A stretch of 64,000 bases of DNA from Betaproteobacteria bacterium (GTDB lineage Bacteria; Pseudomonadota; Gammaproteobacteria; Burkholderiales; SG8-41), in assembly GCA_016868035.1 (NCBI GenBank), contig VGID01000012.1, positions 1 through 64,000 of the forward strand, read 5' to 3'. The notes under the pieces were generated by a model. That model was not told the DNA's origin and did not search any database. It saw nothing but the letters and a program-made list of their open reading frames with translations. Shown piece by piece: positions 34,361 to 51,079 of this stretch. Numbering within the stretch: position 1 is the first letter of the stretch; each line of letters starts with the position of its first letter. Position numbers and translations under genes: made by a program.

Positions 34361-35719
34361 CTACGCTGCTCGCCGCCTGGCGAGCGCCAGCACCGGCAGC
34401 CCGGTCGCGAGCATTGCCATGCCCACGATCGCGCCGATGCTGCCCGGGTCGAGGCTCATCGCGTAGTTGAAGCTCGAGTAGAGCATGTAGGCCGCGGTCA
34501 AGCAGAACAGCGCCGGTGTCACCGGGTAGAGCGGCACCCGGAACGGATCTGCGCTGGCGGGCGACTGCCGGCGCAATAGAAACAGCGAGATGCCGGTCAG
34601 CATGAAGAACAGCCAGAACGCCGGCGCCGTGTACGCGACCATGGTGGTGAACCCGTCTGGCGTGAGCGAGGCGAGCGCGACGAGCGCGAGCGCGATCGCT
34701 CCTTGCACGAGCAGGGCGTTGCCCGGCGCGGCGGATTTCTCGTCCCACCGCCCCAGCGCGCGGAAAATGCGGAAGTCGCGCCCCAGCGCGTAGTTGGTGC
34801 GCGCGCCGGTGAACACGGTCGCGTTGAGCGTCGAGAGCGACGCCGACACCACCACGATGGACAGCAGCCAGGCTCCCGCGTCTCCCCACGCGACCCGCAT
34901 CAGGTCCGCCGCGACCGCGCTGGATGCCTTCATGCCGCCGAGCCCGAGCGCGTTGAGGTAGGCGAGATTGAGCAGCAGGTAGAGCGTGGTGATCACGACG
35001 ATGCCGATGATGAGCGCGCGCACGACGTTGCGCTTCGCCTCCCGGATCTCGGCGCTGAGGTAGGCGGCCTCGTTCCATCCCCCGTAGGTAAGCAGCACGA
35101 AGATCAGCGCGAGCCCGCCGAAGAACGGCACCTCCGCCTGCGCCGGCGCCGGCGCAGCCGCCGGGGCCGCGGAGGCCGTGAGGCCGCCCGCCACCACCGC
35201 GAGGATGGCGAGCGCGAGCGCGACGGTGAGCGTGTTCTGCACCCATTTGCTCCGGGTCGTGCCGGTGACGTTCAAAGCGGTGATCGCGGCGACCGCGAGC
35301 CCGGCGTAGATGCCCGAGCTGTAGGCCCCGAGCGGCACGAGCCGCGTCGCGTAGTCGCCGAACACGAAGGCGATCGCGGCGATTGCCCCGGTCTGGATGA
35401 CCGTCATGCGCGCCCATGCGAAGAGAAATCCGAGCCAGTCCCCGTAGGCACGGTTGAGGAAGTGGTACTCGCCGCCCGCGTTGGGATGCGAGCTCGCGAG
35501 TTCCGCGTAGCAAAGCGCACCGATCAGGGAAATCACGCCGCCCGCGATCCAGATCGCGATGAACGCGGTCTCGCTCCCCACGTTGCCGGCGACGATGGAC
35601 GGCGCCTTGAAGATCCCCACCCCGACGACGATGCCGACGATCATCGCCACCGCGTCGAACACGGTGAGCGTCGGGCGCGGCGCGCCTCCCGCGCCCGGGG
35701 CCTGCGCGGGCGCGCTCAT
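34361..35719 (-). CDS. APC-superfamily amino acid permease
   Basis: 452 residues with about 12 hydrophobic helices. The N-terminal V-G-I-V-V-G-V-G-I-F-K-A-P-S block corresponds to helix 1 of LAT/APC transporters (substrate backbone contact), and G-G-W-N-E-A-A-Y-L-S-A-E and T-G-A-R-T-N-Y-A-L-G follow in helices 6 and 8. It is an inner-membrane amino acid or polyamine transporter of unknown specificity. Its ATG overlaps the stop of a methyltransferase-like gene (ATGA), so the two are translationally coupled. It is the last gene of the methyltransferase-like array on this strand. Confidence 0.9.
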   Translation of the reverse strand: MSAPAQAPGAGGAPRPTLTVFDAVAMIVGIVVGVGIFKAPSIVAGNVGSETAFIAIWIAGGVISLIGALCYAELASSHPNAGGEYHFLNRAYGDWLGFLFAWARMTVIQTGAIAAIAFVFGDYATRLVPLGAYSSGIYAGLAVAAITALNVTGTTRSKWVQNTLTVALALAILAVVAGGLTASAAPAAAPAPAQAEVPFFGGLALIFVLLTYGGWNEAAYLSAEIREAKRNVVRALIIGIVVITTLYLLLNLAYLNALGLGGMKASSAVAADLMRVAWGDAGAWLLSIVVVSASLSTLNATVFTGARTNYALGRDFRIFRALGRWDEKSAAPGNALLVQGAIALALVALASLTPDGFTTMVAYTAPAFWLFFMLTGISLFLLRRQSPASADPFRVPLYPVTPALFCLTAAYMLYSSFNYAMSLDPGSIGAIVGMAMLATGLPVLALARRRAA

Positions 35720-36639
35720 CGGAATGCTCCCGCCAGAGCGGGAGCGACGGCGCTCATGCGCGCTTCGCCGCGCGCCGTGAGCTTCGCGCGCCACGGCGTG
35801 ACCCGCTGGCCCGCGCCCTCGCCTATGGTCACCGTTCCTTCGATGACATCGTCCTTGACCCAGCCGCGGAAGCGGTGGCTCACCAGGCTGCCGCCGATGG
35901 TCGCGTTCAGGGGGAAGTTCATCTCCTCGCCGTTGAGCCGGATCTGCGGCAGACGGAACTCGCGCTGGTCTATCCGCACGCTGCCTTGCACCACCTGGTA
36001 GCGCTGCTCGAACGCGAACTGATAGGCGACGGTGCGGCCGCCGACCGGCAGCTGCGACTCCCAGCGCCCGGCGACCCGGGCCGGTACGACCCACAGGTAG
36101 ACGTAGCTCTTGCCCGGATCGCCGACCGTCTTCTCCGGGACGATCAGGATCCTCTCGTCGTCCGGGTCCCAGTCGCCCATCGCGTAGTCGTGGGCCACCA
36201 CGCGCGTGCCGGGCTTGAGCGAGAGCAGCTTCGGGCGCAGCTTCAAGTTCATCTCGGGCAGCAGGTAGCTCGTGATCACCGTCGCGGAGCCGAGATCGGT
36301 CTCGAACAGGTTCTGCTCGATGAAGCGCGCGCGATCGGCTACTCCTTCCTTGCTGGCACGCTCGTTGGCCAGCTTGTTGAGATGGGTGTCGAGATCCACG
36401 CCGAATCCGCGCGCGCCGAATTGCTTCGCGGCCGTGACCACGATGCGCCCGTCGCCCGAGCCCAGATCGATCACGTAGTCCTTGGGACCGACCTTCGCCA
36501 TCTGCAGCATCTCGTCCACGACGATCTGCGGCGTGGGCACGTACACGACGTCGCCCCTGCCATCCTGCGCGCCGGCGCCCGGCGCTGCGAGCGCGAGCGC
36601 CACGGCGAATCCGCGAACCCAACGCGTTACCCGATCCAT
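35716..36639 (-). CDS. Exported SAM-methyltransferase-like protein, array copy 1
   Basis: 307 residues from the ATG at 36639, preceded by gaaaggg. A signal peptide (F-A-V-A-L-A-L-A-A-P-G-A-G-A-Q, about 11-25) is followed by Y-V-P-T-P-Q-I-V-V-D-E-M-L, the SAM motif D-L-G-S-G-D-G-R (58-65), A-A-K-Q-F-G-A-R-G-F-G-V-D-L-D, and S-Y-L-L-P-E-M...L-K-P-G-T-R-V-V-A-H-D-Y. The last 120 residues are a beta-rich domain ending near V-T-P-W-R-A-K-L. The Rossmann part resembles DOT1/FAM173-type lysine methyltransferases (inference). An exported SAM enzyme is odd because SAM is cytosolic. Coupled to the APC permease by ATGA. Confidence 0.82.
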   Translation of the reverse strand: MDRVTRWVRGFAVALALAAPGAGAQDGRGDVVYVPTPQIVVDEMLQMAKVGPKDYVIDLGSGDGRIVVTAAKQFGARGFGVDLDTHLNKLANERASKEGVADRARFIEQNLFETDLGSATVITSYLLPEMNLKLRPKLLSLKPGTRVVAHDYAMGDWDPDDERILIVPEKTVGDPGKSYVYLWVVPARVAGRWESQLPVGGRTVAYQFAFEQRYQVVQGSVRIDQREFRLPQIRLNGEEMNFPLNATIGGSLVSHRFRGWVKDDVIEGTVTIGEGAGQRVTPWRAKLTARGEARMSAVAPALAGAFR

Positions 36640-36762
36640 ATCGAACCCTTTCTCATCAGAACCCGTCTCGAAAAATCCCGGCTCTCCGGTGTCGATGTCA
36701 TCGGCGTCCATCGGCACCGTGCCGCCCGCATTATCCCATCAACCCGCCGCGCGGCGCCGCAT

Positions 36763-37623
36763 TCACCGTTTGATTCTCACCGCGCGCCACTTCGCGACGC
36801 GGCGCTGCATGCCCACCCCGCGCGTCACCTCGCCTTCGATGACGTCCCCGCTCACCCGGCCCTCGAAGTACAGCGCGGACTCGCCCTCGCCCGCGTCGGC
36901 GTCGGTCATCACGAAGCTCAGACGCTCGCCCGCGATTCGCGCCTCCCACACCATCGCCGGCGCGCCGTCGAGGCGCCCGTGCGCGCTCACCTGCTGGTAG
37001 CGCTGCGTGAATTCCAGATCGAGCTTGCGCGCCGCCGCCGGCAACTCGATGCTGGTGCGCCACACGCCCGCAACCTGCGCGGGCACGATCCAGAGGTAGA
37101 CGTTCTTGCGCACCGACGTGGTCTGGTCGGGCTTCCAGTCGCCCAGGTCGAAATCGTGCGAGACGACGCGCGTGCCAGGCTTGAGCGCGAGCAGCCGGTC
37201 GCGCAGCTTCAGCATGACGCCCGGCAGCAGGTAGGTCGTGATCACGCTCGCCGGACTGAGGTCGGTCTTGAAGAGATCCTGCTGGAGGAACTGGACGCGG
37301 TCCGCCACGCCGGCCTGCCGCGCAGACTCCTCGGACTGGATGACGAGGTTGAAATCGAGATCCACGCCCAGGCCGCGCGCGCCGAATTTCCGCGCCGCCG
37401 TGATCACGATGCGCCCGTCGCCGGAGCCGAGATCGATCACGAAATCCTTGGCGGTGACCCCGGCGAGCCGCAGCATCTCGTCCACGGTGAGCTGCGCGGT
37501 GGGCACGAACGGCACGTCGTGCGGGAAGCCGCGCTCCTGGGCGTGCGAGGGCGCGAGCGGAACGGCAAGGACCGCGCACAGCAGGGCGCAAAGAACGGCC
37601 GGAACCGCCCGTGCTCCCATCAT
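36763..37623 (-). CDS. Exported SAM-methyltransferase-like protein, array copy 2
   Basis: 286 residues. A clear signal peptide (V-L-C-A-L-L-C-A-V-L-A-V-P-L-A-P-S-H-A-Q, 10-29) precedes F-V-P-T-A-Q-L-T-V-D-E-M-L (P-T-A-Q instead of P-T-P-Q) and D-L-G-S-G-D-G-R (64-71), then F-G-A-R-G-L-G-V-D-L-D and T-Y-L-L-P-G-V. The C-terminal domain ends R-V-A-K-W-R-A-V-R. The ATG at 37623 overlaps the TGA of copy 3; a second ATG directly follows. A 123-nt gap separates it from copy 1, the only large gap within the downstream half of the array. Confidence 0.82.
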   Translation of the reverse strand: MMGARAVPAVLCALLCAVLAVPLAPSHAQERGFPHDVPFVPTAQLTVDEMLRLAGVTAKDFVIDLGSGDGRIVITAARKFGARGLGVDLDFNLVIQSEESARQAGVADRVQFLQQDLFKTDLSPASVITTYLLPGVMLKLRDRLLALKPGTRVVSHDFDLGDWKPDQTTSVRKNVYLWIVPAQVAGVWRTSIELPAAARKLDLEFTQRYQQVSAHGRLDGAPAMVWEARIAGERLSFVMTDADAGEGESALYFEGRVSGDVIEGEVTRGVGMQRRVAKWRAVRIKR

Positions 37624-38477
37624 CCCTCTTCCGCTCCGGAAACGATGCGCGTCGCGCGCCAGCGGCTCGCGACGAGCTGCGGCCCGGTGCCCGAGCGCAC
37701 CACGCCTTCCATCGCCGCGCCCCGGACCTGCCCCTCGAAGCGGTGGCTCGTCTGCCCGGTCACCAGCACGAACTGGATGCGGTCTCCAGAGAGCCGCGCC
37801 TCGAAAGCGGGCAGGAAGCCGCCCGAGAGGTGCGCGCCACCGCGTATTTCCTGGTAGCGCTGCTCCAGGCGCAGCTCGTACTCGCCCTCGCCCCCGGGCA
37901 GCGTCGCAGTGAGCTGCCACCGGCCGGCAACCTGCGCCGGCACGACGTAGAGATAATAGGTCTTGGATATGGTGACGCGCCGGTCCGCCTTCCAGTCGGA
38001 GAAGCCGTAATCGTGCGCGACGATGCGCGTGCCGGGCCGCAATTCCGCGAGCAGCCTGGGCTTGAGCCGCTCGACCAGGGGAGTGAGCAGATACATGGTG
38101 ACGACCGTGCCGGCCCGCAGGTCGGCCGTGAGCACGTCGCCGTGCCGGAATTCCACCCGCTCCGCCACGCCGGCCCGCCGGGCGTTCGCGCGGCTCTCCT
38201 CGACGAGCGCGGGATCGATCTCGATGCCCAGGCCGCGCGCGCCCCAGTCGCGCGCCGCGGCGATCACCACGCGCCCGTCTCCGGAGCCGAGATCGACGAC
38301 CAGGTCTTCCGCGCGCACCTCCGCGAGCCGCAGCATCTCATCCACCGCGACATGGGTGGAGGCGAGATACGGTGTCGGGATGTCGGGCAGGCCGGCGGCA
38401 GCGCCAGGGCCGGCAGCCACCGCCGCAGCGAGCATGCATGCGGCCGCCGCCGTGGACCGCGCCCGCCCCTGCGCCAT
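37620..38477 (-). CDS. Exported SAM-methyltransferase-like protein, array copy 3
   Basis: 285 residues with an Ala-rich signal peptide (about 9-29), then T-H-V-A-V-D-E-M-L, D-L-G-S-G-D-G-R-V-V-I (62-72), G-I-E-I-D-P and V-T-M-Y-L-L-T-P. Copy 3 departs most from the others at the front, where P-T-P-Y-L-A-S-T-H replaces the Y-V-P-T-P-Q-x-V-V run, and it has T-P instead of the usual L-L-P. The C-terminal domain is intact, with H-R-F-E-G-Q-V-R-G-A-A-M-E-G-V-V. Its start abuts the copy 4 stop (TAG-ATG) and its stop overlaps copy 2, so translation is coupled on both sides. Confidence 0.82.
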   Translation of the reverse strand: MAQGRARSTAAAACMLAAAVAAGPGAAAGLPDIPTPYLASTHVAVDEMLRLAEVRAEDLVVDLGSGDGRVVIAAARDWGARGLGIEIDPALVEESRANARRAGVAERVEFRHGDVLTADLRAGTVVTMYLLTPLVERLKPRLLAELRPGTRIVAHDYGFSDWKADRRVTISKTYYLYVVPAQVAGRWQLTATLPGGEGEYELRLEQRYQEIRGGAHLSGGFLPAFEARLSGDRIQFVLVTGQTSHRFEGQVRGAAMEGVVRSGTGPQLVASRWRATRIVSGAEEG

Positions 38478-39404
38478 CTATTTCGCGACCTGCGGCGCGG
38501 GTGCGTCGGTATGGCGCGGAGGCCATGCCTCGACGCGTGCGGCGCTCCAGCCGATTTCCTGCGATTGCGCGCCGCGCACGACGCGGACCGTGCCCTTGAT
38601 CGCGTCGCCGGCGATGCGTCCGGAAAACTCGTATCGCACCGCTGCCGCGCCACTGCCGGAAGCCGCCGCGAACCCGATACGCTCGCCCGCGAGCACCCCG
38701 TTTTCGATGGCCATGCCTTGCCCGGACACGGTGAGCCTGCCGTTCAGTTTCTGGAACTGCTGGTCGAGCGATAGCTCGAAGGGCGCCGGTCCCCCGTCCA
38801 GGCCGAGCTCCCAGCGCCAGCGCCCTGCCGCGCTCGCCGGCACTACCCAGTACAGGATCTTGCTGGTTTTTTTCAGTCCGACCGGCTTGTCCGGCGCGTC
38901 GACCTCGATCTGGAAATCGGGCTGCCATTCGCCCAGGTCGTAATCGTGCGACACGATGCGCGCGCCGGGCTTCAACTCGGCGAGCAGCTTGGGCCTGACC
39001 ATCAGGACCACCTCGGGCAGCAGGTACATCGTGAGCACCGTCGCGCGGCTGACATCGGTCTGGTAGAGATCGCGCGCGTAGAACGCGGCCCGCTTCGCCA
39101 CCCCGGCCTGCGCCGCGAGCTTCTTGCTGCGCTCCACGAGCCGCGGATCGATGTCCACGCCGAAGCCGCGCGCGCCGAATTTCTTCGCCGCGGTGATCAC
39201 GATACGCCCGTCGCCCGAGCCGAGGTCCACCACGAAATCGTTGGGCCCCACGCTCGCCACCTCGAGCATCTTGTCCACCACGCTCTGCGGGGTGGGCACA
39301 TACGGCGAGTCGCCGTAATCCTGGGCGAGCGCCACGCCCGCGGCGAGGCCCGCCGCCGCGAACGACCAGCCGAGCCGCCTCCGGAGCGAGCCGCAGTTCT
39401 TCAT
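38478..39404 (-). CDS. Exported SAM-methyltransferase-like protein, array copy 4
   Basis: 308 residues from the ATG at 39404, which overlaps the TGA of copy 5. The N-terminus M-K-N-C-G-S-L-R-R-R-L-G-W-S and an Ala-rich hydrophobic core end at A-L-A-Q-D (about 25-29). Then come Y-V-P-T-P-Q-S-V-V-D-K-M-L, D-L-G-S-G-D-G-R-I-V-I-T-A-A (60-73) and F-G-A-R-G-F-G-V-D-I-D-P. Y-W-V-V-P-A-S-A-A-G-R-W starts the beta-rich domain. A C-terminal extension after the usual end (E-A-W-P-P-R-H-T-D-A) is unique to this copy. Two Arg pairs in the leader make Tat export conceivable. Confidence 0.83.
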   Translation of the reverse strand: MKNCGSLRRRLGWSFAAAGLAAGVALAQDYGDSPYVPTPQSVVDKMLEVASVGPNDFVVDLGSGDGRIVITAAKKFGARGFGVDIDPRLVERSKKLAAQAGVAKRAAFYARDLYQTDVSRATVLTMYLLPEVVLMVRPKLLAELKPGARIVSHDYDLGEWQPDFQIEVDAPDKPVGLKKTSKILYWVVPASAAGRWRWELGLDGGPAPFELSLDQQFQKLNGRLTVSGQGMAIENGVLAGERIGFAAASGSGAAAVRYEFSGRIAGDAIKGTVRVVRGAQSQEIGWSAARVEAWPPRHTDAPAPQVAK

Positions 39405-40354
39405 TTCGGGGTCTCCACGAAGCGCACGGCGTAGGGGTCCGCCCGCACAGGGGCCGCCGCTCCCCGTACCGTGCGCCGCGCATTCCATTCGATCTGGGCG
39501 GTGACGCGCGCGCCCGATACCGCGACCGTGCCGGCAATGGTATCGGCCTCGACCTTTCCGGTGAACTCGTGCTTCACCGGCGCGCCGTCCAGCTCCGCGG
39601 TGAAGTTGAAGCGGATCTCGTCACCGCGCAGGCGCGCGCCCTGCACCCGGATCGTGCGGCCGCCGAGCCGCACGGAGCCGGAGATTTCCTGGAAGCGCTG
39701 TTCCAGCGTCACTTCGTAGGAGTGCGGCTTGCCGGCCACCGGAAACTGCCATTGCCAGGTGCCGGAAACCTGCGCGGGCACGATCCAGAAATAGATCTCG
39801 CTCCTGCCGCCGGCCCCGCCGTACTTGTCCTTGCTTTCCACCGTGACGTGGGTATCGGGCTTCCACTCCTCCATGGAAAAATCGTGCGAGACCAGCCGCG
39901 TGCCGGGCTTGAGCTGGAGCAGTCGCGGGCGCAGCTCCAGGTTGACGCGCGGCAGCAGGTACATCGTGATCACGGTCGCCTCGCTCAAATCGGTCTCGAA
40001 GAGGTCGCGCTGATAGAACGCGACCTTGTCGCTCACGCCCGCCTTGCGCGCGTTCTCGACGCTCTCGGTGATGCGCTGCGGGTTGAGATCCACGCCGAAG
40101 CCGCGCGCGCCGAATTTCCTCGCCGCGGTGATCACGATGCGCCCGTCGCCCGAGCCGAGATCGATCACGTAGTCCCTCGGCGTGACCTTGGCGATCTGCA
40201 ACATCCGCTCCACCACGTCCTGCGGCGTCGGCACGTAGGGAACGCTCGGCTCCCCGCCCCAGGCCGGGGCGAGCGCCAGGCCGGACACGGCGGCCGCGGC
40301 GGTCAGGCACCGCCGCACAACGCTCGATACTCGATCACACGATGTGGACTGCAC
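39401..40354 (-). CDS. Exported SAM-methyltransferase-like protein, array copy 5 (promoter-proximal)
   Basis: 317 residues from a GTG at 40354 with an excellent agaggagg ribosome-binding site 6 nt upstream. The leader contains V-R-R-C-L-T-A-A-A-A-V-S-G-L-A-L-A-P-A-W. It is followed by Y-V-P-T-P-Q-D-V-V-E-R-M-L, D-L-G-S-G-D-G-R-I-V-I (65-75), V-D-L-N-P-Q-R and M-Y-L-L-P-R-V. The beta-rich domain carries H-E-F-T-G-K-V-E-A-D-T-I-A-G-T-V. This is the first gene of a five-gene methyltransferase-like run that ends in the APC permease. It is divergent from the spermidine-synthase-like gene across a 109-nt gap. Confidence 0.84.
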   Translation of the reverse strand: MQSTSCDRVSSVVRRCLTAAAAVSGLALAPAWGGEPSVPYVPTPQDVVERMLQIAKVTPRDYVIDLGSGDGRIVITAARKFGARGFGVDLNPQRITESVENARKAGVSDKVAFYQRDLFETDLSEATVITMYLLPRVNLELRPRLLQLKPGTRLVSHDFSMEEWKPDTHVTVESKDKYGGAGGRSEIYFWIVPAQVSGTWQWQFPVAGKPHSYEVTLEQRFQEISGSVRLGGRTIRVQGARLRGDEIRFNFTAELDGAPVKHEFTGKVEADTIAGTVAVSGARVTAQIEWNARRTVRGAAAPVRADPYAVRFVETPK

Positions 40355-40463
40355 GGATCACCTCCTCTGGTCTGCTCGGCACCGTCCTCCTCGTCGGCAT
40401 TGTGTTCCTGCGTTATATTGGCAGGCTCGAAAACGGTGAATTATACCCGACTGATTCCCGGAC

Positions 40464-42065
40464 ATGCTCTACGCCATCATCTTCGTCTCGGGCGCCGCGG
40501 TGCTCGCGCTCGAGCTGCTTGCCTCGCGCATCATGACGCCCTATTTCGGGGTGAGCCTCTACATCTGGACCGGCATACTCTCGATCACGCTCGTTGCGCT
40601 CGCGCTCGGCTACTGGGCCGGCGGACGGTTCGCCGGATTTCGCTCCGGCGCGAGCGTCGAGCGGCTCACGCAGCTCTTCGCGCTGATGCCCGCCGCCGCC
40701 GCTTTCGCCATCGTCGCCGCGTGCCTCGCGTATCCCTACCTGTTCGCCGGGCTCGCAGCCATGGACCTGGTGCTGGGAGCGTTCGCAGCGTGCCTGATCC
40801 TGCTCTTCGTGCCGCTGGTCGCGGTCTCCGCGATGAACCCGCTGCTGGTGGCGATACTGCTCGCGCGCGGCGCGGGGCGCGGGGGAGATGCCGGCGCCGG
40901 CCGGGTCTTCTTCGTGAGCACCATCGGCTCGGTCGCGGGCGTGCTGGTGACCGCTTTCGGCCTCATTCCCAACTTCAGCAATTTTTCCGCCACGCTGACG
41001 GTGGCGCTCATGCTCGCGCTGCTCTCGCTCGCCGCCGCCGTGCGCGCGCCCGCTTCGCTCGGGGCGCGCCGCAAGCTCGGCCTCGCCGCCGGGGGCGCGA
41101 CACTCGCCGCCGCACTGATGCTGTGGCAGGCCGATGCCTACGTCGGCCGCATGTGGCCGGCGAACCACGGGGGCAGGACGTGGCGCGTCGAGGCGCGCAT
41201 CAATTCTCTCTTCGGCACGGTGAAGATCCTGCGCAGCGATCCCGATCCGGTCACCGGCGGATTCGTGCGCATCTACTTCCAGGACGGGCTGATCCAGAAT
41301 ACCGTCGCCTCGGACGGGCGCTCGCTTTCCTACTACACCTACGCGCTCGAGGCGCTGGCGCACGCCTACCGCCCGCAAATCGAGCATGCGCTCGTGCTGG
41401 GCCTGGGCGCCGGCATCGTGCCGATGCGCTTCGCGGAACGGGGCGTGCCCGTGGACGCCGTGGAGATCGACCCCGCCTCGCTCGCCGCGGCGCAGCGCTA
41501 TTTCGGCTTCGATCCCTCGCGCGTGCGCGTCGAGCTCGCCGACGCGCGCACGCAGCTGCGCCGCTGCGCCCGGCGCTACGATGTGATCATCGTGGACCTC
41601 TTCCACGGCGACGGCATACCCGATTACCTGGTCACGCGCGATTTCTTCAACGACCTGCGCCGCTGCCTCACCGCGGACGGCATCGCGGTATTCAACACCT
41701 TCGCGGACCTGGCGCTTCCCGATGCCTACGCGCACCTGCTCGCGACGGTGCGCGCCGAGCTGCCCCATATCGTGCTCTACCGGCCCGAGTGGCCGGGGTC
41801 GGCGCACGTGAACAGCTTCCTCGTGGCGAGCGTGCGCCCCCTGCCCCCCGCCCGGCCGGTCGCGCTGGATCACGTCGTGCCACAGCATGCCGCGACGCTC
41901 GCCGCGATGCTCGCGCGCCCCCAAGCGCTGCACCGCGGCCTGCTCGAACACGGCGAGATCGTGACCGACGCGCGCAACCGCGGGGTGCACGACATTGCGG
42001 AGACGCAGGCGAACTACCGGCGCGCCATGGTGGAATCGCTGCCGCGGGCTTTCCTGCTGAACTGA
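40464..42065 (+). CDS. Membrane-fused spermidine synthase-like protein
   Basis: 533 residues. The first 215 contain about six or seven hydrophobic helices (opening L-Y-A-I-I-F-V-S-G-A-A-V-L-A-L-E-L-L). The rest is a soluble spermidine-synthase-type domain with Y-F-Q-D-G-L-I-Q-N (about 272-280), the nucleotide motif L-V-L-G-L-G-A-G-I-V-P, V-D-A-V-E-I-D-P and D-V-I-I-V-D-L-F-H-G-D-G-I-P. Classical enzymes transfer aminopropyl from decarboxylated SAM. Membrane-fused forms are common in bacteria and poorly characterised. It is flanked on both sides by the methyltransferase-like array on the opposite strand and converges with copy 6. It may use the same cofactor family or substrate. Confidence 0.88.
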   Translation: MLYAIIFVSGAAVLALELLASRIMTPYFGVSLYIWTGILSITLVALALGYWAGGRFAGFRSGASVERLTQLFALMPAAAAFAIVAACLAYPYLFAGLAAMDLVLGAFAACLILLFVPLVAVSAMNPLLVAILLARGAGRGGDAGAGRVFFVSTIGSVAGVLVTAFGLIPNFSNFSATLTVALMLALLSLAAAVRAPASLGARRKLGLAAGGATLAAALMLWQADAYVGRMWPANHGGRTWRVEARINSLFGTVKILRSDPDPVTGGFVRIYFQDGLIQNTVASDGRSLSYYTYALEALAHAYRPQIEHALVLGLGAGIVPMRFAERGVPVDAVEIDPASLAAAQRYFGFDPSRVRVELADARTQLRRCARRYDVIIVDLFHGDGIPDYLVTRDFFNDLRRCLTADGIAVFNTFADLALPDAYAHLLATVRAELPHIVLYRPEWPGSAHVNSFLVASVRPLPPARPVALDHVVPQHAATLAAMLARPQALHRGLLEHGEIVTDARNRGVHDIAETQANYRRAMVESLPRAFLLN

Positions 42066-42084
42066 ACGGTCCGCCGCCCGGACT

Positions 42085-43131
42085 TCAGCGCTCCGTCCCG
42101 TCCAGGGGCTGCCGACGCGAGGTGCGGCGGGCGCTCCAGCGCGCCGTGGCCGGAGCGTCGGTGCCGCGGCGGATGTGCACCTCGCCCATCATCGCGTCTC
42201 CTTCCAGGCGGGCAGACACCTCGTATTGCGTCTCCCCCGCCTCGATCCCGAAAGCGATCTGCGCTCCGCGCACCGCGACGCTCGTGAGGTCCCACGCCTC
42301 GGCGCCGCGCCGGGCGAGCCCCCCGGCGCGCTGGAAACGCTGCCGGATGGAGAGCGCCAGCGACTCGCTGCGCGCACCCTCGATGCGCGCGTCCCAGTCG
42401 CCGGAGAAATTCGCGGGGACTACCCACAGCCGCACGGTGCTCTCGCCCCCGCGACCCTGGTTGCGCTCCGGCACGTAGAAGGTGAGCGTCTCGTCGGGAG
42501 ACCAGTCGGTCATGGTGAAGTCGTGCACGAGGATGCGCGCGCCGGGCTTCAGTTCCGCGAGCAGCTTGCGCCGCAGCCGCGCGATCAGCCCCGGCAACAG
42601 GTAAATCGTCACGACCGTGGCCTTGCTCGTGTCGGTCTTCAGCACGTCGCGCTGCTCGAAGCGCACGCGTTCCGCGACGCCCTGGCGCTTCGCCTCGGCG
42701 ATGCTCTGCCCGATCAGCTCGGCGTCGCTGTCCACGCCCCAGCCGCGCGCACCGAAATAGCGCGCCGCGCTGATCGGGATGCGCCCGTCGCCCGAGCCCA
42801 GGTCGAGCACCAGGTCCGCCGGCCCGACCCTCGCAAGCTCGAGCATGCGCACCACGGTCGCCTGCGGTGTCGGGAAAAAAAAGGAGAAGGTTTCGTCGGC
42901 GTGCGGCTTCTCGGCGCGCAGCGCCTCGCCCCGCGCAGCCCAGACGGCCTGCGTCCAGCGCGCCGAGACGAGCAGCGCAGCCGCGCCGCACAGTGCTTCG
43001 CGCCGGTTCAAGCGCTGCCTTTGCTTCCCAGGGGAGTCGGAACGCCCTTCCAGGAGCGGGCATCCCGGCGCCGCCGTGCCCGCGCCGCGCCTCTCAGGTG
43101 CCGATGCGCCTGCCGTTCCACCGCGCGACAC
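42085..43131 (-). CDS. Exported SAM-methyltransferase-like protein, array copy 6
   Basis: 348 residues if begun at ATG 43131, which overlaps copy 7 by 38 nt; a later start near L-N-R-R-E-A-L-C-G (residue 41) is possible. That leader has a twin Arg followed by A-L-C-G-A-A-A-L-L-V-S-A, so Tat export is plausible. Then come F-F-F-P-T-P-Q-A-T-V-V-R-M-L, D-L-G-S-G-D-G-R-I-P-I (110-120), F-G-A-R-G-W-G-V-D-S-D and I-Y-L-L-P-G-L, then the beta-rich domain ending A-T-A-R-W-S-A-R-R. It is the most divergent copy, for example with F-F-F before P-T-P-Q. It converges with the spermidine-synthase-like gene, 19 nt apart. Confidence 0.8.
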   Translation of the reverse strand: MSRGGTAGASAPERRGAGTAAPGCPLLEGRSDSPGKQRQRLNRREALCGAAALLVSARWTQAVWAARGEALRAEKPHADETFSFFFPTPQATVVRMLELARVGPADLVLDLGSGDGRIPISAARYFGARGWGVDSDAELIGQSIAEAKRQGVAERVRFEQRDVLKTDTSKATVVTIYLLPGLIARLRRKLLAELKPGARILVHDFTMTDWSPDETLTFYVPERNQGRGGESTVRLWVVPANFSGDWDARIEGARSESLALSIRQRFQRAGGLARRGAEAWDLTSVAVRGAQIAFGIEAGETQYEVSARLEGDAMMGEVHIRRGTDAPATARWSARRTSRRQPLDGTER

Positions 43132-43969
43132 CCCTGCCGCCGGCGAGCTCGACGCCGCCCTCCATGGCCTCCCCGCTCACCTGCCCCTTGAAGACGTGCC
43201 GGCCGCCGGCGACGGGCAGGGAAAAAACGATCTCCTCGCCGCGCAGCCGCGTCTGCACGAGCTTCCCGGCCTTGCCCGCCGCACCCGTGATCGTTCCGTC
43301 GAATCTCTGGTAGCTCTGGCGCAGCACCACTTCATGCTGCTCCGCCCCCCCGGAAGCCGTGACGCGGATCTGCCACCTGCCGGCGACCCGTGCCGGCACG
43401 ATCCACAGGTAAACGGTGGCGCTCGGGATGCCGCTCACCTTCTCCTTCTCGGGCACGTCGAGCGTCACCCGCGCGTCCGGCTGCCACTCGCCGAAATGAT
43501 AATCGTGCGAGACCACGCGCGCGCCGGGCTTGAGCTCGCGCAGCATCTTGGCGGCGAGGCTCAGCATCATCTCCGGCAGCAGGTAGAGCGTCACCACTGT
43601 CGCCTTGCTGATGTCCGCGTCGTACACATTCTGCACCCGGAACTGCGCGAGTTCCGCGACGCCGAGGCGACGCGCCTCGCTGTTGCTGTACTTCACCAGC
43701 TCCGGGTCGATGTCCACGCCGAAGCCGTGCGCCTTGAATCTGCGCGCGGCCGTGAGCACGATGACGCCGTCGCCCGACCCGAGGTCCACCACGAAGTCGC
43801 GCGGCCCGACGTTGGCCATGCGCAGCATCTCGTCCACCACGACCTGCGGGGTGGGCACGTACGGCCCGCCCGTGCGCGCGATCTCCGCGGCCCCGGCGAG
43901 CCGCGCCGCGGGCAGCGCGGCGAGTGCAGCCAATACGCGTCTGCGCAACATGGAAAAATCTTCTGCCAT
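43094..43969 (-). CDS. Exported SAM-methyltransferase-like protein, array copy 7
   Basis: 291 residues from ATG 43969 with ggag 7 nt upstream. The leader M-L-R-R-R-V-L-A-A-L-A-A-L-P resembles a weak Tat or Sec signal. It is followed by Y-V-P-T-P-Q-V-V-V-D-E-M-L, D-L-G-S-G-D-G-V-I-V-L (62-72), F-K-A-H-G-F-G-V-D-I-D-P-E and L-Y-L-L-P-E-M-M. Its SAM motif has Val where all other copies have Arg (D-G-V for D-G-R), and its F-K-A-H replaces F-G-A-R, so cofactor or product may differ. First gene of a two-gene minus-strand run with copy 6, divergent from the GNAT gene. Confidence 0.83.
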   Translation of the reverse strand: MAEDFSMLRRRVLAALAALPAARLAGAAEIARTGGPYVPTPQVVVDEMLRMANVGPRDFVVDLGSGDGVIVLTAARRFKAHGFGVDIDPELVKYSNSEARRLGVAELAQFRVQNVYDADISKATVVTLYLLPEMMLSLAAKMLRELKPGARVVSHDYHFGEWQPDARVTLDVPEKEKVSGIPSATVYLWIVPARVAGRWQIRVTASGGAEQHEVVLRQSYQRFDGTITGAAGKAGKLVQTRLRGEEIVFSLPVAGGRHVFKGQVSGEAMEGGVELAGGRGVARWNGRRIGT

Positions 43970-44126: not shown

Positions 44127-44675
44127 ATGGGTTCCGGCGCGCTGATCCGTCCCGCGCGCGCCGCGGACCTCGCCGCAGCCGCGGACATCTATGCCTTTTA
44201 CGTGCTGAACGGGCTCGCTTCGTTCGAGCTCGAGCCGCCGTCCGTCGAGGAAATGGCGCGCCGTCATGCGTCCATTACGGCGGCTACCCTGCCCTATCTG
44301 GTTGCCGAGCTCGATGGGCGTGTAGCCGGCTACGCATATGCGTCCGCCTACCGCGCGCGCCCGGCGTATCGCTACACGGTGGAAGATTCGGTCTACGTGC
44401 ACCGCGACTGCGGGAAACGCGGCGTCGGCGGCGCACTGCTCAGGGAACTGATCGCCCGGTGCGCCGCGGCGGGCGCCCGCCAGATGATCGCGGTGATCGG
44501 CGACAGCGCCAACCATCCTTCGATCCGCCTGCACGAGAAACACGGCTTCGCGCGCGTGGGGCTCCTGCCATCGGTCGGCTACAAGTTCGAGCGCTGGGTG
44601 GACAGCGTGCTCATGCAGCGCGCGCTCGGCGCCGGCGACACGACGGCGCCGGCGCAGAGCGCGGCACGCGGCTGA
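44127..44675 (+). CDS. GNAT family N-acetyltransferase (phosphinothricin acetyltransferase type)
   Basis: 182 residues. The N-terminal I-R-P-A-R-A-A-D-L-A-A-A-A-D-I-Y and F-E-L-E-P-P-S match the Pat/Bar group. The acetyl-CoA-binding loop is C-G-K-R-G-V-G-G-A-L-L (about 93-103), and the end has L-H-E-K-H-G-F-A-R-V-G and G-Y-K-F-E-R-W-V-D-S-V. Family members acetylate phosphinothricin, methionine sulfoximine or related amino compounds in the cytoplasm. It is 28 nt upstream of the GcvT-like gene, in the same direction. Confidence 0.88.
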   Translation: MGSGALIRPARAADLAAAADIYAFYVLNGLASFELEPPSVEEMARRHASITAATLPYLVAELDGRVAGYAYASAYRARPAYRYTVEDSVYVHRDCGKRGVGGALLRELIARCAAAGARQMIAVIGDSANHPSIRLHEKHGFARVGLLPSVGYKFERWVDSVLMQRALGAGDTTAPAQSAARG

Positions 44676-44702
44676 GGATTTCCGCGACCGGGACCGCGCC
44701 GC

Positions 44703-45890
44703 ATGCTGAAGACCACGCCCTTCCACGAGCGCACCGCACGCGTGTGCGTGAGCCACGCGTGGCGGCGCTGGGCCGGCCATATCGTCGCCAGCTCCTACGA
44801 GCTCTCGCACGAGCGCGAGTACCACGCGATACGGTCCGCGGCCGCCCTCTTCGACATCTCTCCGCTCTACAAGTACCTGGTGCGCGGGCGCGACGCTGCG
44901 CGCCTGCTCGACGGCATTGCGACGCGCAACGTGGCGGGCGCACGGGTGGGAGACGTGCTCTACACGCCCTGGTGCGACGCCGCCGGCAAGGTCCTCGATG
45001 ACGGGACGGTCGCCCGCCTTGCCGAGGACACCTTCCGCCTCACCGCCGCGGATCCCAATCTGCGCTGGCTGCAGGACAACGCAACGGGGCTCGAGGTGAC
45101 GATAGAGGACGTCTCCGAGTCCACCGCGGCCCTCGCGCTGCAAGGCCCCGCCTCGCGCCAGATTCTCCAGCAATTGACCGACACTGACCTGACCAGTCTC
45201 AAATATTTCAGAATTACCGCAGCTCGCCTGCGGGAATTCTCGGTGACGATCTCGCGCACCGGGTACACCGGGGACCTCGGCTACGAGATCTGGCTCGAGC
45301 GCGAGCACGCGATTCCCGTATGGGATGCGCTGATCGAGGCCGGCACCCCGTACGGAATCACGCCCGCGGGGATGCTCGCGCTCGACATCGCGCGCATCGA
45401 GGCGGGGCTGATGCTGATCGACGTGGACTACGTGCCCGCCCGCAAGGCGCTCATCCCGGCGCAGACCTCCTCCCCCTTCGAGCTCGACATCGGCTGGACG
45501 GTAAGCCTCGAGAAGGAGCATTTCGTCGGCAAGCCTGCGCTTGCGGAGGAAGCGCGTCGCGGACCGGCCTGGCGGTTCACGGGGCTCGAGATCGAGTGGG
45601 ACGCGCTCGAGCGGCTCTACGACGAGGTCGGGCTCGCGCCGCGGCTACCTGCCGCGGCGTGGCGCACGAGCGTCCCGGTATATGCGGGCGGGGAGCAGGT
45701 CGGCTACGCGACGAGCGGGGGCTGGTCGCCGCTGCTCAAGAAATATCTCGCGCTCGCGCACCTGCGCTCGCGCTCGGCCGCGCCCGGAACGCGCCTCGAG
45801 ATGGAGGTGACGATCGAGCACCGGCGCAAGCGCGCCGGCGCGCGCGTGGCGAAGAAGCCCTTCTTCAACCCCGAGCGCAAGCGCGCATAG
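44703..45890 (+). CDS. GcvT-like aminomethyltransferase family protein
   Basis: 395 residues. It shares the GcvT layout: a tetrahydrofolate-binding region around S-A-A-A-L-F-D-I-S-P-L-Y-K-Y (about 45-58), A-L-A-L-Q-G-P-A-S-R (about 142-151), S-R-T-G-Y-T-G-D-L-G-Y-E-I (about 182-194), and the C-terminal barrel domain with T-S-G-G-W-S-P. The two glycine-cleavage partners (GcvH, GcvP) are absent, so it more likely transfers a one-carbon group from another N-methyl compound or acts as a folate-dependent demethylase. It is followed 10 nt later by two FAD oxidoreductases, a combination that fits oxidative demethylation (inference). Confidence 0.88.
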   Translation: MLKTTPFHERTARVCVSHAWRRWAGHIVASSYELSHEREYHAIRSAAALFDISPLYKYLVRGRDAARLLDGIATRNVAGARVGDVLYTPWCDAAGKVLDDGTVARLAEDTFRLTAADPNLRWLQDNATGLEVTIEDVSESTAALALQGPASRQILQQLTDTDLTSLKYFRITAARLREFSVTISRTGYTGDLGYEIWLEREHAIPVWDALIEAGTPYGITPAGMLALDIARIEAGLMLIDVDYVPARKALIPAQTSSPFELDIGWTVSLEKEHFVGKPALAEEARRGPAWRFTGLEIEWDALERLYDEVGLAPRLPAAAWRTSVPVYAGGEQVGYATSGGWSPLLKKYLALAHLRSRSAAPGTRLEMEVTIEHRRKRAGARVAKKPFFNPERKRA

Positions 45891-45900
45891 CGGGCGCCGG

Positions 45901-47487
45901 ATGCCGATGCCTGCCTCCTACGACGCGATCGTGATCGGCGGCGGCCATAACGGGCTCGTGTGCGCCGCGTACCTCGCGCGCGCGGGAAAACGCGTAGTCG
46001 TGCTCGAGCGCCGCGATGAGGTCGGAGGCGCCGCGGTAAGCGAAGAAGTCTTCCCCGGGTTCACGTTCTCGACCTACTCGTACGTCGTGAGCCTGCTGCG
46101 GCCCGAGATCATCCGCGACCTCGATCTCCCGCGCCATGGGCTGCACATCCTGCCGCTCGAGAGCACGTTGACGCCGCTTGCGAACGGCGACTACCTCGCG
46201 CAGTGGAGCGACCACGACCAGAACCACCGCGAGCTTGCCCGCCACTCCGCGCGCGACGCGGAGGCCCTCGAGGAATTCGGCCGCCTCATGCACCAGATGG
46301 CGCGCGCGGTGAAGCCGTTGCTCGGCATGGTCCCTCCGGACCCGGCCTCGCTCGCCCCCCGCGACCTGCTCGGGCTCATGCGCGTCGCGCGGCACGTGCG
46401 CGGCCTCGGACCCGGCGCGTTCCACGCGCTGTGCAAGCTGATGACGATGAGCGCCGCGGACTACCTCGATGAGTGGTTCGAGACCGATGCGCTCAAGGCG
46501 ACGAAATCCGCGAGCGGCATCATCGGCACCCTTCTCGGGCCGCGCTCGCCGGGAACCGCCTACGTGCTGCTGCACCACTACATGGGCGAGATCGACGGCG
46601 TCTTCCGTGCGTGGGGCTTCGCGAAAGGCGGAAACGGCTCGGTGAGCGCAGCGATTGCCGGCGCAGCGCGGGCGCTCGGCGCCGAAATCCGCACAGGTGC
46701 TCCGGTTGCGCGTGTGCTGGTCGGGAACGGCCGCGCCACGGGTGTCGCGTTGGAAAGCGGAGAGGAGATCGCGGCGCAGTGCGTGGTTTCCGGCGTCGAT
46801 CCGCGGCGCACCTTCATCGAGCTCGTGGGCGCGGAGCACCTGCCTTCCGAATTCGTCGAGGCGATCCGCCGATTCAAGTTCCGCGGCTCTTCCGGCAAGG
46901 TGAACCTCGCGCTCGGCGCGCTGCCCGACTTCACCTGCCTGCCGGGCGCCGGGCCACACCTGCGCGGGGCCATCTCGATCAGCCCGAGCGTGGACTACCT
47001 CGAGCGCGCGTACGACGAGGCCAAGTACGGCGAGTGCTCGCGCCGCCCGTATCTCGACATCGTCATCCCGTCCATGATCGACCCGGCGATGGCGCCGCCG
47101 GGCCGGCACGTCATGTCCATCTTCGTGCAGTACGCGCCGTATGCAGTGAACGGCGGCTGGACGGAAGCGCGGCGCGCGGCGTTCGGCGATGCGGTGATCG
47201 ACACGCTCGCCGAGTATGCGCCGAACATCAGGTCCGCGATCCTGCACCGGCAGGTGATCACGCCCGCCGACATCGAGCGCACGCTGGGCCTCTCCGAGGG
47301 CAACATCTTCCAGGGCGAGCTCACGCTGCAGCAGATGTTCTTCCTGCGCCCGGCGCCCGCGTGGGCGAAGTACCAGACGCCGATTCACGCGCTCTGGCAG
47401 TGCGGCGCGGGCACGCACCCGGGCGGCGGGGTCATGGGTGCTTCCGGCCGCAACGCGGCGCTCACCATGTTGGGAAGCGCAAGGTGA
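45901..47487 (+). CDS. FAD-dependent oxidoreductase (CrtI/PYROXD2-like)
   Basis: 528 residues. The dinucleotide-binding motif is I-V-I-G-G-G-H-N-G-L-V-C-A-A-Y-L-A-R-A-G (about 10-29), followed by the V-L-E-R-R-D-E-V-G-G-A-A-V region. Later come M-T-M-S-A-A-D-Y-L-D-E-W-F-E and the C-terminal A-G-T-H-P-G-G-G-V-M-G-A-S-G-R-N-A. This group resembles carotenoid desaturases and the uncharacterised PYROXD2 oxidoreductases. It overlaps the next gene by 4 nt (GTGA), and the two proteins are clear paralogues. Confidence 0.87.
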   Translation: MPMPASYDAIVIGGGHNGLVCAAYLARAGKRVVVLERRDEVGGAAVSEEVFPGFTFSTYSYVVSLLRPEIIRDLDLPRHGLHILPLESTLTPLANGDYLAQWSDHDQNHRELARHSARDAEALEEFGRLMHQMARAVKPLLGMVPPDPASLAPRDLLGLMRVARHVRGLGPGAFHALCKLMTMSAADYLDEWFETDALKATKSASGIIGTLLGPRSPGTAYVLLHHYMGEIDGVFRAWGFAKGGNGSVSAAIAGAARALGAEIRTGAPVARVLVGNGRATGVALESGEEIAAQCVVSGVDPRRTFIELVGAEHLPSEFVEAIRRFKFRGSSGKVNLALGALPDFTCLPGAGPHLRGAISISPSVDYLERAYDEAKYGECSRRPYLDIVIPSMIDPAMAPPGRHVMSIFVQYAPYAVNGGWTEARRAAFGDAVIDTLAEYAPNIRSAILHRQVITPADIERTLGLSEGNIFQGELTLQQMFFLRPAPAWAKYQTPIHALWQCGAGTHPGGGVMGASGRNAALTMLGSAR

Positions 47488-49019: not shown

Positions 49020-50237
49020 TCAACGCACCTCGGGGTGCGCGGCGCGGTCCTGCCGGCGGGCGACGAGCACGCACGCCAGACCCACCGCCGCCGGGACCGC
49101 GAGCAGGGCAAAGGCGAGCGTGTAGCTGCCGCCCGCGAGATAGGCGTGGGTGAATGCGATCGGCCCGACGGTCTTGCCGACGTTCACGAAGACGAGCGAG
49201 CCTCCGGTCGCGCTGGCGATCGCAGCGCGCGGGCTCAACTGCGCCACCTCCGCCAGGTACGCTCCATTCCAGCCGCTCGCGGTGGAGCCGAGCACGAAAA
49301 ACAGCGCGCAGGAGACCGCGATCGGTAGCGCCGGCGTAACCCCCAGCACCAGCACCGAGCTCGCCAGCATGACGGCGGCCAGCACCGCCAGCACCGCGAA
49401 GCAGTTGCGCGTGAGATCGGCGAGCCACCCCCAGAACACCCGTCCCGCCACCCCGCCCACCTGGGAGGCGGTCAGCACGATGCCGGCCGCGATCAGACCG
49501 GTCTGCATCTCTTCCGCGAACAGCACGACGGTGAACGTCGAGAGACAGACCTGCACGATGACGAAGCAGCCGCCCGCGATCGAGAGCAGCCGCAGCGCGG
49601 GATCGTTCCAGACGCGGGCCACACCGGCGAAGGGCGCGACTGCGAGCGGCGCGTGCGGATCGCGGTCGTCGTCCCATTGCGCCCGCCCCTTTTCGAGCTG
49701 CATCACGATGAGCAGCATCGCGAGCGCGTTGCCCGCGAGCGCCCACTGCCAGCCGAACGCAACCGCCACCTGCGGCCCGATCACGGCGGCGCCGATACCC
49801 CCTAACGGCACGCCGGTCTGCTTGAGCGAGAACACCAGGTTGCGCCGGCCCGCGGGCGCGTAGCGCATCAGGAGATGCGACGCGGAAGGCGTGAGCAGAC
49901 CGTACCCCAGGCCGAGCGCGAGCGCCGAGGCGAACAGGAGCGCGACGTGCGGCAAGATGGCGACGACGCAGCCCGCGGTGAGCAACAGAAGCCCGACCTG
50001 CGTCACGCGGCACGGGCCCCACCGCGTGGAAAGGTGCGACCCGAACACCAGCGCGAGCACCATCGCCGCAGCGAGCAGGCTGATCTGGTAGCCGATCAGC
50101 GAGGCGCTGATGCCGTAGGTCTCGGCCACCTTCGGCGCCATCGCGGGCAGAAGCATAGTCGCGACGGTGCCGATAGTCTGCCCCGTGAGCAGCGCCCCGA
50201 GGAGAAACCCGAAACCGGGCCCGCGCCCGCCGTTCAC
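49020..50237 (-). CDS. MFS transporter coupled to methyltransferase-like copy 8
   Basis: 405 residues starting at a GTG that forms a GTGA overlap with the stop of copy 8. About 12 hydrophobic segments follow (G-F-L-L-G-A-L-L-T-G-Q-T-I-G-T-V-A-T at the front). The cytoplasmic loop between helices 2 and 3 has G-S-H-L-S-T-R-W-G-P, a degenerate MFS motif A. The protein resembles the cyanate or general MFS group. It is an inner-membrane permease of unknown substrate. Upstream frame translation has no membrane character, which supports the GTG start. Confidence 0.87.
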   Translation of the reverse strand: MNGGRGPGFGFLLGALLTGQTIGTVATMLLPAMAPKVAETYGISASLIGYQISLLAAAMVLALVFGSHLSTRWGPCRVTQVGLLLLTAGCVVAILPHVALLFASALALGLGYGLLTPSASHLLMRYAPAGRRNLVFSLKQTGVPLGGIGAAVIGPQVAVAFGWQWALAGNALAMLLIVMQLEKGRAQWDDDRDPHAPLAVAPFAGVARVWNDPALRLLSIAGGCFVIVQVCLSTFTVVLFAEEMQTGLIAAGIVLTASQVGGVAGRVFWGWLADLTRNCFAVLAVLAAVMLASSVLVLGVTPALPIAVSCALFFVLGSTASGWNGAYLAEVAQLSPRAAIASATGGSLVFVNVGKTVGPIAFTHAYLAGGSYTLAFALLAVPAAVGLACVLVARRQDRAAHPEVR

Positions 50238-51079
50238 GGAATGCGCACGGCGCTCCAGCGCGCGGTGACCGTGCCGTCGGCCCGCCGCGCTTCGCCCTTC
50301 ATGCTCTCGCCCTCGACCACGCCCACGAAGAGCTCGCGGGGCGAGCCGCTTGCGCCCTGCGCGCCGAATTGCAGCCGGGTCCCGTCGATCCTGCCGCCTT
50401 CGAGCTTCACGCTCGCGCCCCCGTGCGCGAGCCGGCCGCCGAAGCGCTGAAACGTCTGGCGGATCTCGAGCCGGAATTCCCCGCCCCCGGGGTCGGACCA
50501 CGTGCCGCGCCAGTTCCCCTGCACGGCGGCCGGCACGACCCAAAGGTGCACCGTGGAGGTCCAGATCTGTCCGGTCTGATCGTACTTTTCGGGTGTTTCC
50601 ACCGTGACGCTGCGATCCGGTTTCCAGTCGCCCAGATCAAAATCGTGCGACACGATGCGAGCCCCGGGACGCAGCTCCTTCAGGAACTTCGGGCGCAGGG
50701 TTTCCATCATTCCCGGCAGCAGATAGAGCGTCAGCACGGTGGCACGCCGCAGGTCCGCGTTGCGCACGTCCTGCCGGAGGAAATGCACGCGCTCCGCCAC
50801 TCCGAGCTTCCGCGCGGCGGCGTTGCTCCGTTCCACGAGCTCCGCGTCGATGTCCACGCCGAAGCCGCGCGCACCGAATTTCCTGGCGGCGGTGAGCACG
50901 ATGCGCCCGTCTCCCGAGCCGAGGTCCACGACGTAGTCCCTGGAACCGACGCGTGCGATCTTCAGCATCGCGTCCACCACGACCGGCGGCGTGGGGATGT
51001 AGGGCCCGCCCTCGTGAATTTCGCCCGCGGCGTGCGCGAGCGAAGCGCAGACCAATAACGCGGCGCCGGAAGCCCGCAT
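50234..51079 (-). CDS. Exported SAM-methyltransferase-like protein, dispersed copy 8
   Basis: 281 residues, about 6 kb from the main array. A short signal peptide M-R-A-S-G-A-A-L-L-V-C-A-S-L-A-H-A-A-G (1-19) is followed by Y-I-P-T-P-P-V-V-V-D-A-M-L, D-L-G-S-G-D-G-R-I-V-L-T-A-A (52-65), F-G-A-R-G-F-G-V-D-I-D-A-E and L-Y-L-L-P-G-M-M-E. Its C-terminal domain ends V-T-A-R-W-S-A-V-R. It is most like copies 4 and 7 over the N-terminal blocks. The start has no strong ribosome-binding site. It is coupled to an MFS permease and lies downstream of tctCBA on the same strand, separated from tctA by a 7-nt-period repeat. Confidence 0.83.
   Translation of the reverse strand: MRASGAALLVCASLAHAAGEIHEGGPYIPTPPVVVDAMLKIARVGSRDYVVDLGSGDGRIVLTAARKFGARGFGVDIDAELVERSNAAARKLGVAERVHFLRQDVRNADLRRATVLTLYLLPGMMETLRPKFLKELRPGARIVSHDFDLGDWKPDRSVTVETPEKYDQTGQIWTSTVHLWVVPAAVQGNWRGTWSDPGGGEFRLEIRQTFQRFGGRLAHGGASVKLEGGRIDGTRLQFGAQGASGSPRELFVGVVEGESMKGEARRADGTVTARWSAVRIP

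Follow-up and report, generated by a model that had tools for sequence, protein, structure and literature searches.

Clustered, predicted exported methyltransferases and an APC-type permease in Burkholderiales: a possible system for methylation outside the cytoplasm

Introduction

What would a bacterium do with seven or more methyltransferase-like proteins that appear to be exported, and how would these obtain S-adenosylmethionine (SAM)? Reactions of SAM are usually assigned to the cytoplasm alone or, in eukaryotes, also to compartments that have a carrier for it. The question is raised by a stretch of 64,000 nucleotides from a Betaproteobacteria bacterium of the order Burkholderiales (assembly GCA_016868035.1, contig VGID01000012.1, positions 1 to 64,000), referred to as the window. 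A first-pass annotation of its letters had described seven tandem paralogues of exported SAM-methyltransferases (MTs) and a detached eighth copy. Here we compare the locus with its relatives and propose that it belongs to an extracytoplasmic SAM-dependent methylation system with a transporter of its own, a reading to which we give an even chance.

Results

The methyltransferase genes of the window

The seven-copy set and the eighth copy are real. The minus strand holds eight complete MT genes: c1 (35716..36639) with the leader MDRVTRWVRGFAVALALAAPGAGAQ, c2 (36763..37620), c3 (37620..38477), c4 (38478..39404) with the twin-arginine-like leader LRRRLGW, c5 (39401..40354), c6 (42085..43011) with the twin-arginine-like leader NRREALCGAAALL, c7 (43094..43969) and c8 (50234..51079). 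Start codons in the window were chosen by us; for lack of an ATG, c5 was begun at GTG and c6 at TTG. Seven further full or partial MT copies are found elsewhere in the genome (E < 1e-60).

Seven copies indeed fall within 35716-43969, but their run is broken between c5 and c6 by a gene on the plus strand (40464..42065). It encodes a spermidine-synthase-like protein with seven transmembrane segments (SPD). A permease gene of the APC superfamily (34361..35719, minus strand), designated APC below, overlaps c1 by 4 bp. Both genes bear on the mechanism and had been overlooked in the first-pass annotation. The statement that most copies are joined by ATGA or abutting starts and stops applies to three of the five direct-neighbour junctions (spacing -4 for c5/c4, 0 for c4/c3 and -1 for c3/c2), but not to c2/c1 and c7/c6, which have gaps of 123 and 82 bp.

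Identity of the window copies to c1 is 38-48%, and the D-L-G-S-G-D-G block is invariant in all eight. Profile searches with Pfam assigned 8/8 copies to SAM-methyltransferase families far beyond chance, and NCBIfam did likewise. Its top family for every copy was NF041081, archaeal protein-lysine N-methyltransferase, with 99.7-133.1 bits, below the curated cut-off of 200. The gathering score of 23 for DOT1 (PF08123) was reached by c1, c4, c5, c7 and c8, while c2, c3 and c6 stayed below it; the matches are confined to the front part of the 205-position profile and end at positions 75-157. Across the 56 loci described below 254 of 257 MTs keep the SAM motif by a loose pattern, 243 of them letter for letter. 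A degenerate SAM site, which would have spoken against the first-pass view, is thus rejected at the level of the motif.

A structure model of c5, the sole MT copy modelled (predicted local distance difference test, pLDDT, 90.4), has a Rossmann domain of the aKMT type and, after it, some ten strands. Comparison by VIA-align, in which residues 37-195 (the Rossmann part) were aligned, gave Z 27.6 with 5bxy of Salinibacter ruber (154 residues, root-mean-square deviation (rmsd) 1.2), Z 27.4 with aKMT bound to S-adenosylhomocysteine (SAH; 5fad, 155 residues, rmsd 1.6) and Z 26.9 with SAM-bound aKMT (154 residues, rmsd 1.9). Dot1 on the nucleosome (7k6q) matched more weakly (Z 16.7, 160 residues, rmsd 2.5). 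Of the DOT1/FAM173-like Rossmann fold that had been suggested, the kinship to aKMT therefore stands, that to FAM173 follows from a grouping in the literature, and Dot1 is more distant. The MTs are an aKMT/FAM173-like SAM-methyltransferase domain joined to a C-terminal all-beta domain. The beta domain had no supported Pfam match in the eight copies (best E 0.14) and no convincing match among profiles of the Protein Data Bank (best E 0.062, TamB). The orthogroups introduced below differ in the loop after the MT core, which C and D do not have.

A recurring cluster of old orthogroups

Gene order, selection, the SAM motif, co-occurrence and adjacency were computed. Loci were taken from a scan of public genomes (best 80 matches, 74 loci), a search of relatives and gene maps; 56 non-redundant loci were kept, each with SPD or APC and 29 with both. 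The same layout recurs: an MT gene or a pair of them comes first, SPD follows on the opposite strand, and several more MT genes lead to APC. With letters for MT groups the order in Burkholderiales relatives reads U|SPD|A-B-(C)-D-E-F>APC.

These letters are clades of a tree built from 113 MTs of 18 loci, in which the position in the array, and not the genome, determines which copies group together. Support in the Shimodaira-Hasegawa-like approximate likelihood ratio test (SH-aLRT) was 95 for U, 96 for A (85 with L049), 100 for B, 100 for C, 89 for D, 98 for C+D, 99 for E and 99 for F. Profiles of the clades then served to classify the 257 MTs of all 56 loci; 225 were assigned with a margin of >20 bits and 32 fell below it. 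The window copies c1 to c5 belong to F (the group adjoining APC), D, C, B and A, respectively, and c7 to U; group E is missing from the window. Detached c8 is a member of the U clade and pairs with L124_U2 (SH-aLRT 98). Divergent c6 has an end branch of 0.91 and only a low-margin assignment, so that its orthogroup is unsure.

The A-F order was inverted in none of the 38 arrays in which two or more different A-F copies were confidently assigned. Eighteen of these loci had supplied rows of the tree and 20 were independent of the group building; the remaining 18 of the 56, among them L088, L089, L092 and L112, cannot be judged for this order. The ratio of nonsynonymous to synonymous substitution rates was 0.08-0.47 for the orthogroups present in eight genome pairs (group C: one pair), i.e. 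the orthogroups are under purifying selection. Each letter of the array is an old orthogroup. Recent tandem duplication is rejected for the main layout because of this grouping by position in the tree. A tree against relatives, as the first-pass annotation had advised, thus bears out a multi-enzyme set, with seven orthogroups; what had been called an exceptional expansion turns out to be not local but a recurring cluster, present in three families of the order sample.

In another family, f13, the arrays comprise up to 14 MTs between SPD and APC at opposite ends, over about 23 kb in genome G047. The largest array seen lies there on one contig (G047:C11, L134:10506-20000 and L135:1-13776) with SPD, 14 MTs and APC; it also contains genes for a ferritin-like protein, a DUF1643 protein, a TctC-like protein and a sodium symporter with its DUF4212 partner. 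At L160 the gene caller missed an MT and an APC that L155 and six-frame translation show, and the MTs of L144 and L164 were missed likewise.

An APC-type permease accompanies the methyltransferases

The best NCBIfam match of APC was TIGR00911, the L-type amino acid transporter, with 185 bits, below the curated cut-off of 701.8. In profile searches against solved structures it was nearest to SLC7 transporters of the LAT/xCT/b0,+AT type and bacterial relatives (6f2g, which we take to be BasC, and 9h76; E 1e-70 to 9e-51). LAT-type proteins are exchangers.

The two families occur together. In a sample of 250 genomes of the order, MTs (E <= 1e-70) were present in 47 and APC (E <= 1e-120) in 43, with 38 genomes holding both (Fisher p 8e-31, relatedness ignored). 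Where MT and APC meet in the arrays, the two genes overlap at 18 of 45 junctions. Each of ten genomes tested had exactly one APC of the subfamily, and in G047 a single APC goes with 14 MTs.

The link between MT and APC holds outside the order. Among 240 genomes of another class six had an MT (E <= 1e-30), and the same six hold one APC each (p 4e-12, again with relatedness ignored). In each of them at least one MT has APC as its same-strand neighbour, on one side or the other (L178, L179, L180, L182, L185, L186); no C-terminal domain is seen in the L185 MT. Four of the ten MT loci in that class show no APC nearby. In a sample of the phylum APC adjoined the MT in two of six other genomes with an MT at E <= 1e-60. 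Five plasmid records matched c5, of which those from Chelatococcus, Agrobacterium and Gloeothece were examined; the other two are from Leptolyngbya. On the Chelatococcus and Agrobacterium plasmids the MT adjoins a same-strand amino acid permease of the APC subfamily, and on the Gloeothece plasmid a shorter MT protein has no adjoining APC.

The methyltransferases are predicted to be exported

For the prediction of export leaders, starts were set by a rule that ignored hydropathy: ATG was preferred to GTG and GTG to any other codon, and the farthest upstream within 70 codons was taken. This rule must have placed some starts wrongly. In the controls the score was taken over the first 35 residues, which is shorter than many leaders. 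A hydrophobic leader reached the threshold in 240 of 255 array MTs, in agreement with the export predicted in the first pass. The corresponding counts in controls were 0/24 for HtpG, 0/9 for EtfA, 1/8 for EtfB, 1/15 for ABC ATPases, 0/9 each for acyl-CoA-dehydrogenase-like and FAH-like proteins and 1/4 for another family; names of control families not given by a profile are presumed ones. A positive charge stood at or before the hydrophobic core in 246/255 MTs, an A-x-A-like site after the core in 252/255 and a twin-arginine-like motif in 52/255, about a fifth. Outside the arrays leaders were predicted for 18 of 19 readable MT copies (21 loci were given; L117 and L119 gave no row). That the leaders are mis-called extensions of cytosolic homologues is unlikely, since they were predicted inside and outside the arrays alike.

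Some relatives have a third SAM-methyltransferase family, the PCMT-like C6, just upstream of U (L124:13855-14622, L132:3826-4566 and others); the window has none. A lipoprotein-type signal ending in cysteine was recognized in nine of the 15 C6 sequences listed, one of these being weak, and the remaining six have no N-terminus as called. Three SAM-binding families of one cluster, MT, C6 and SPD, are therefore predicted to point outside the cytoplasm.

SPD is a membrane protein with a SAM-binding domain

SPD scored 161 bits (E 4e-47) against NF037959, "fused MFS/spermidine synthase", above the curated cut-off of 40. Seven transmembrane segments were seen in an alignment of 39 sequences and in a model (pLDDT 87.4). 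Positive charges cluster in loops 2, 4 and 6, in line with a positive-inside alternation, and hence the SAM-binding catalytic domain is predicted to lie on the periplasmic side. This domain has a spermidine-synthase fold and also resembles METTL13 (5wcj, presumably the second METTL13 domain). That second domain trimethylates the N-terminus of eEF1A, according to PMC10238732.

In SPD the aspartate of the GGGDG motif of 1iy9 is replaced by alanine (A316), which is invariant in 37/37 sequences, and H381 aligns with the second acid of the VDSTE/D motif. Acidic residues at these positions matter for aminopropyltransferase function. The aminopropyl donor requires a SAM decarboxylase; the decarboxylase family PF02675, the only one searched, was not found in 17 of 18 SPD genomes including that of the window and was present in 8 of 14 control genomes. 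Given the missing acidic residues and the rarity of PF02675 in SPD genomes, SPD is more likely to be a SAM-using transferase than a polyamine enzyme.

SPD (E <= 1e-100) was found in 18 of the 250 order genomes. All 18 carry large arrays with 8 or at least 9 MTs each, MTs having been scored up to nine per genome; in the remaining 29 MT genomes there are between 1 and 6 MTs and no SPD. The tie of SPD to the MT array holds within the order sample only and breaks outside the order. SPD-like proteins with seven transmembrane segments from other proteobacteria (L166, L167, L168, L169) have no MT or APC in the flanking DNA examined.

Discussion

A possible mechanism

Enzyme activity, the amine or lysine chemistry, SAM transport and the substrates are what we infer from these data. 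Each MT would be exported by Sec or, for the fifth or so with a twin-arginine-like leader, by Tat, and would act in the periplasm as a soluble amine methyltransferase, most likely on lysine. Substrates would be chosen by the C-terminal beta domain and the orthogroup-specific loop. SPD would add another SAM-binding transferase, anchored in the inner membrane and with the catalytic domain exposed on the outside. Since one permease goes with one to fourteen MTs, it probably serves what these share, i.e. SAM and its product SAH. The LAT/xCT-like nature of APC points to an exchanger. Therefore we propose exchange across the inner membrane, with SAM most likely moving out against SAH, or methionine, moving in.

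If true, the periplasm could be a SAM compartment, too, and the cluster would be an undescribed route for chemically marking molecules outside the cytoplasm. The minimal pair of one MT and one APC occurs outside the order, e.g. on the Chelatococcus plasmid. A broader proposal, which we regard as possible yet somewhat doubtful, is that bacteria methylate with SAM outside the cytoplasm, the SAM being supplied through a dedicated exchanger. Such a system may, in some families of Burkholderiales, have grown to an ordered set of at least seven kinds of exported methyltransferases plus a membrane-held SAM-transferase, which jointly methylate several envelope sites or molecules.

Comparison with known systems

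The closest known enzymes are aKMT of Sulfolobus islandicus (5fa8, 5fad, 5jwj) and the Salinibacter ruber protein 5bxy, with 45-54% identity in the Rossmann domain and Z 20.1 to 27.6 over 152-155 residues. They have the same SAM motif and YLLP or a similar motif; the MTs differ by the export leader, the C-terminal beta domain and the many paralogues. aKMT4 is described in PMC4639711 as methylating many proteins and having no substrate-recognition domains; in the MTs the beta domain and the group-specific loop would confer specificity. FAM173A and FAM173B (ANT-KMT and ATPSc-KMT) are grouped with archaeal KMTs and reported to have strong homology to alphaproteobacterial KMTs in PMC10238732. This paper gives one known mitochondrial target for each of the two human enzymes; we liken them to the MTs by this grouping, not by sequence.

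Methylation of surface-protein lysines in Gram-negative bacteria is known for OmpB and AtaA (PMC10450907 and PMC11784438). The outer-membrane protein lysine methyltransferases (KmtA and rickettsial PKMT1/2) also act on such lysines. By their description in a part of PMC11784438 they have another architecture with a dimerization domain, and no dedicated transporter is described in that part. SPD is like NF037959 by its profile score, but in contrast to that family in general the SPDs of the cluster form a strongly conserved subfamily, tied to the arrays in the order sample and devoid of the acidic residues of aminopropyltransferases. APC resembles the SLC7 LAT/xCT type by profile and differs in being bacterial and tied to exported MTs by co-occurrence and adjacency. 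A search of the literature on exported or periplasmic methyltransferases, fused spermidine synthases and periplasmic SAM retrieved no such system in titles and beginnings of abstracts, with few subscription journals covered. Thus the parts belong in or near known families, and their combination into a system of putative function is new to us.

Evidence against extracytoplasmic methylation and rival explanations

Several observations weigh against methylation outside the cytoplasm with APC as the cofactor transporter. SAM is made in the cytoplasm, and we know of no described bacterial SAM exporter; moreover, the specificity of APC cannot be read from its sequence. We found no published assay of any enzyme of this MT family. 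The p-values for co-occurrence ignore relatedness, nine of the 47 MT genomes of the order have no APC and five of the 43 APC genomes no MT, and G107 and G172 have two APC matches. Four of the six phylum genomes show no APC in 19 kb around the MT, although in one of them, G301, another, weaker MT adjoins an APC. Regarding export, 15 of the 255 array MTs stay under the leader threshold, the A-x-A-like pattern is loose, the L198 copy outside the arrays has no leader as read, and TctC proteins, which are exported, reach the threshold in only 62% of 37. SPD-like proteins (E <= 1e-60) occur in four other genomes of the phylum sample (299 genomes), none of which has an MT at that same threshold; the proteins of G326 and G442 are SPD at E <= 1e-100 (3e-163 and 8e-144), and no MT or APC was present in the 3.9 to 19 kb around the four loci. 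Finally, in the large arrays L088, L089, L092 and L112 of another family most copies were assigned only with a low margin. Because they fit no group clearly, recent tandem duplication may have occurred there.

The hydrophobic segment might be an uncleaved anchor rather than a leader. The MTs would then be lysine methyltransferases facing the cytoplasm and modifying inner-membrane or nascent exported proteins, similar to FAM173A/B. SAM would be at hand in the cytoplasm, and L162 as well as the Gloeothece protein resemble anchored forms more closely. FAM173A/B, termed "Archaeal KMT-like", act on matrix-facing lysines of inner-membrane proteins according to PMC10238732. On the other hand, the charge at or before the core and the A-x-A-like site behind it fit a leader in nearly all array copies, a fifth carry twin-arginine-like motifs, the neighbouring C6 family has a lipobox and the SPD domain is predicted to be outside; so we consider an anchor unlikely. 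Less likely still is that the exported Rossmann proteins merely bind SAM, SAH or a similar metabolite in the periplasm for import by APC, with no methyl transfer. Export, many paralogues and a single transporter would suit binding proteins, and methyltransferase activity is inferred; yet the motif set and the loops typical of the orthogroups are maintained under purifying selection, and the binding of a single ligand would not call for paralogues of seven conserved kinds in a fixed order. Nor are, to our knowledge, secondary transporters of the APC type known to need binding proteins.

Very improbable is the synthesis of N-methylated long-chain polyamines outside the cytoplasm, with SPD adding aminopropyl groups and the MTs methylating them. 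The spermidine-synthase fold of SPD and the amine-methyltransferase-like MTs would fit such a pathway. It is made unlikely by SPD, which has neither the GGGDG aspartate nor the second acidic residue after VD, and by PF02675 being so rare in SPD genomes compared with controls. We thus favor the view that the MTs act as methyltransferases outside the cytoplasm.

Neighbouring genes and further observations

A gene for an MFS transporter (49020..50237, minus strand) overlaps the end of c8 by 4 bp; its link to the system is uncertain. Between the array and this gene, at 44127-48947, lie a GcvT-like aminomethyltransferase gene and then two genes for CrtO/phytoene-desaturase-like oxidoreductases, the second of which is named by its similarity to the first. 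This stretch adjoins a gene for an N-acetyltransferase of the phosphinothricin/arsinothricin type. Other MT copies of the same genome (L114, L117, L118, L120) are near TctC-type genes; TctC is also common in the window, and this vicinity may be due to chance. Seven of the loci (L054, L063, L064, L065, L074, L080, L093) come from metagenome bins labelled Bordetella parapertussis. They group with bins of environmental Burkholderiales and Betaproteobacteria, and the label looks wrong.

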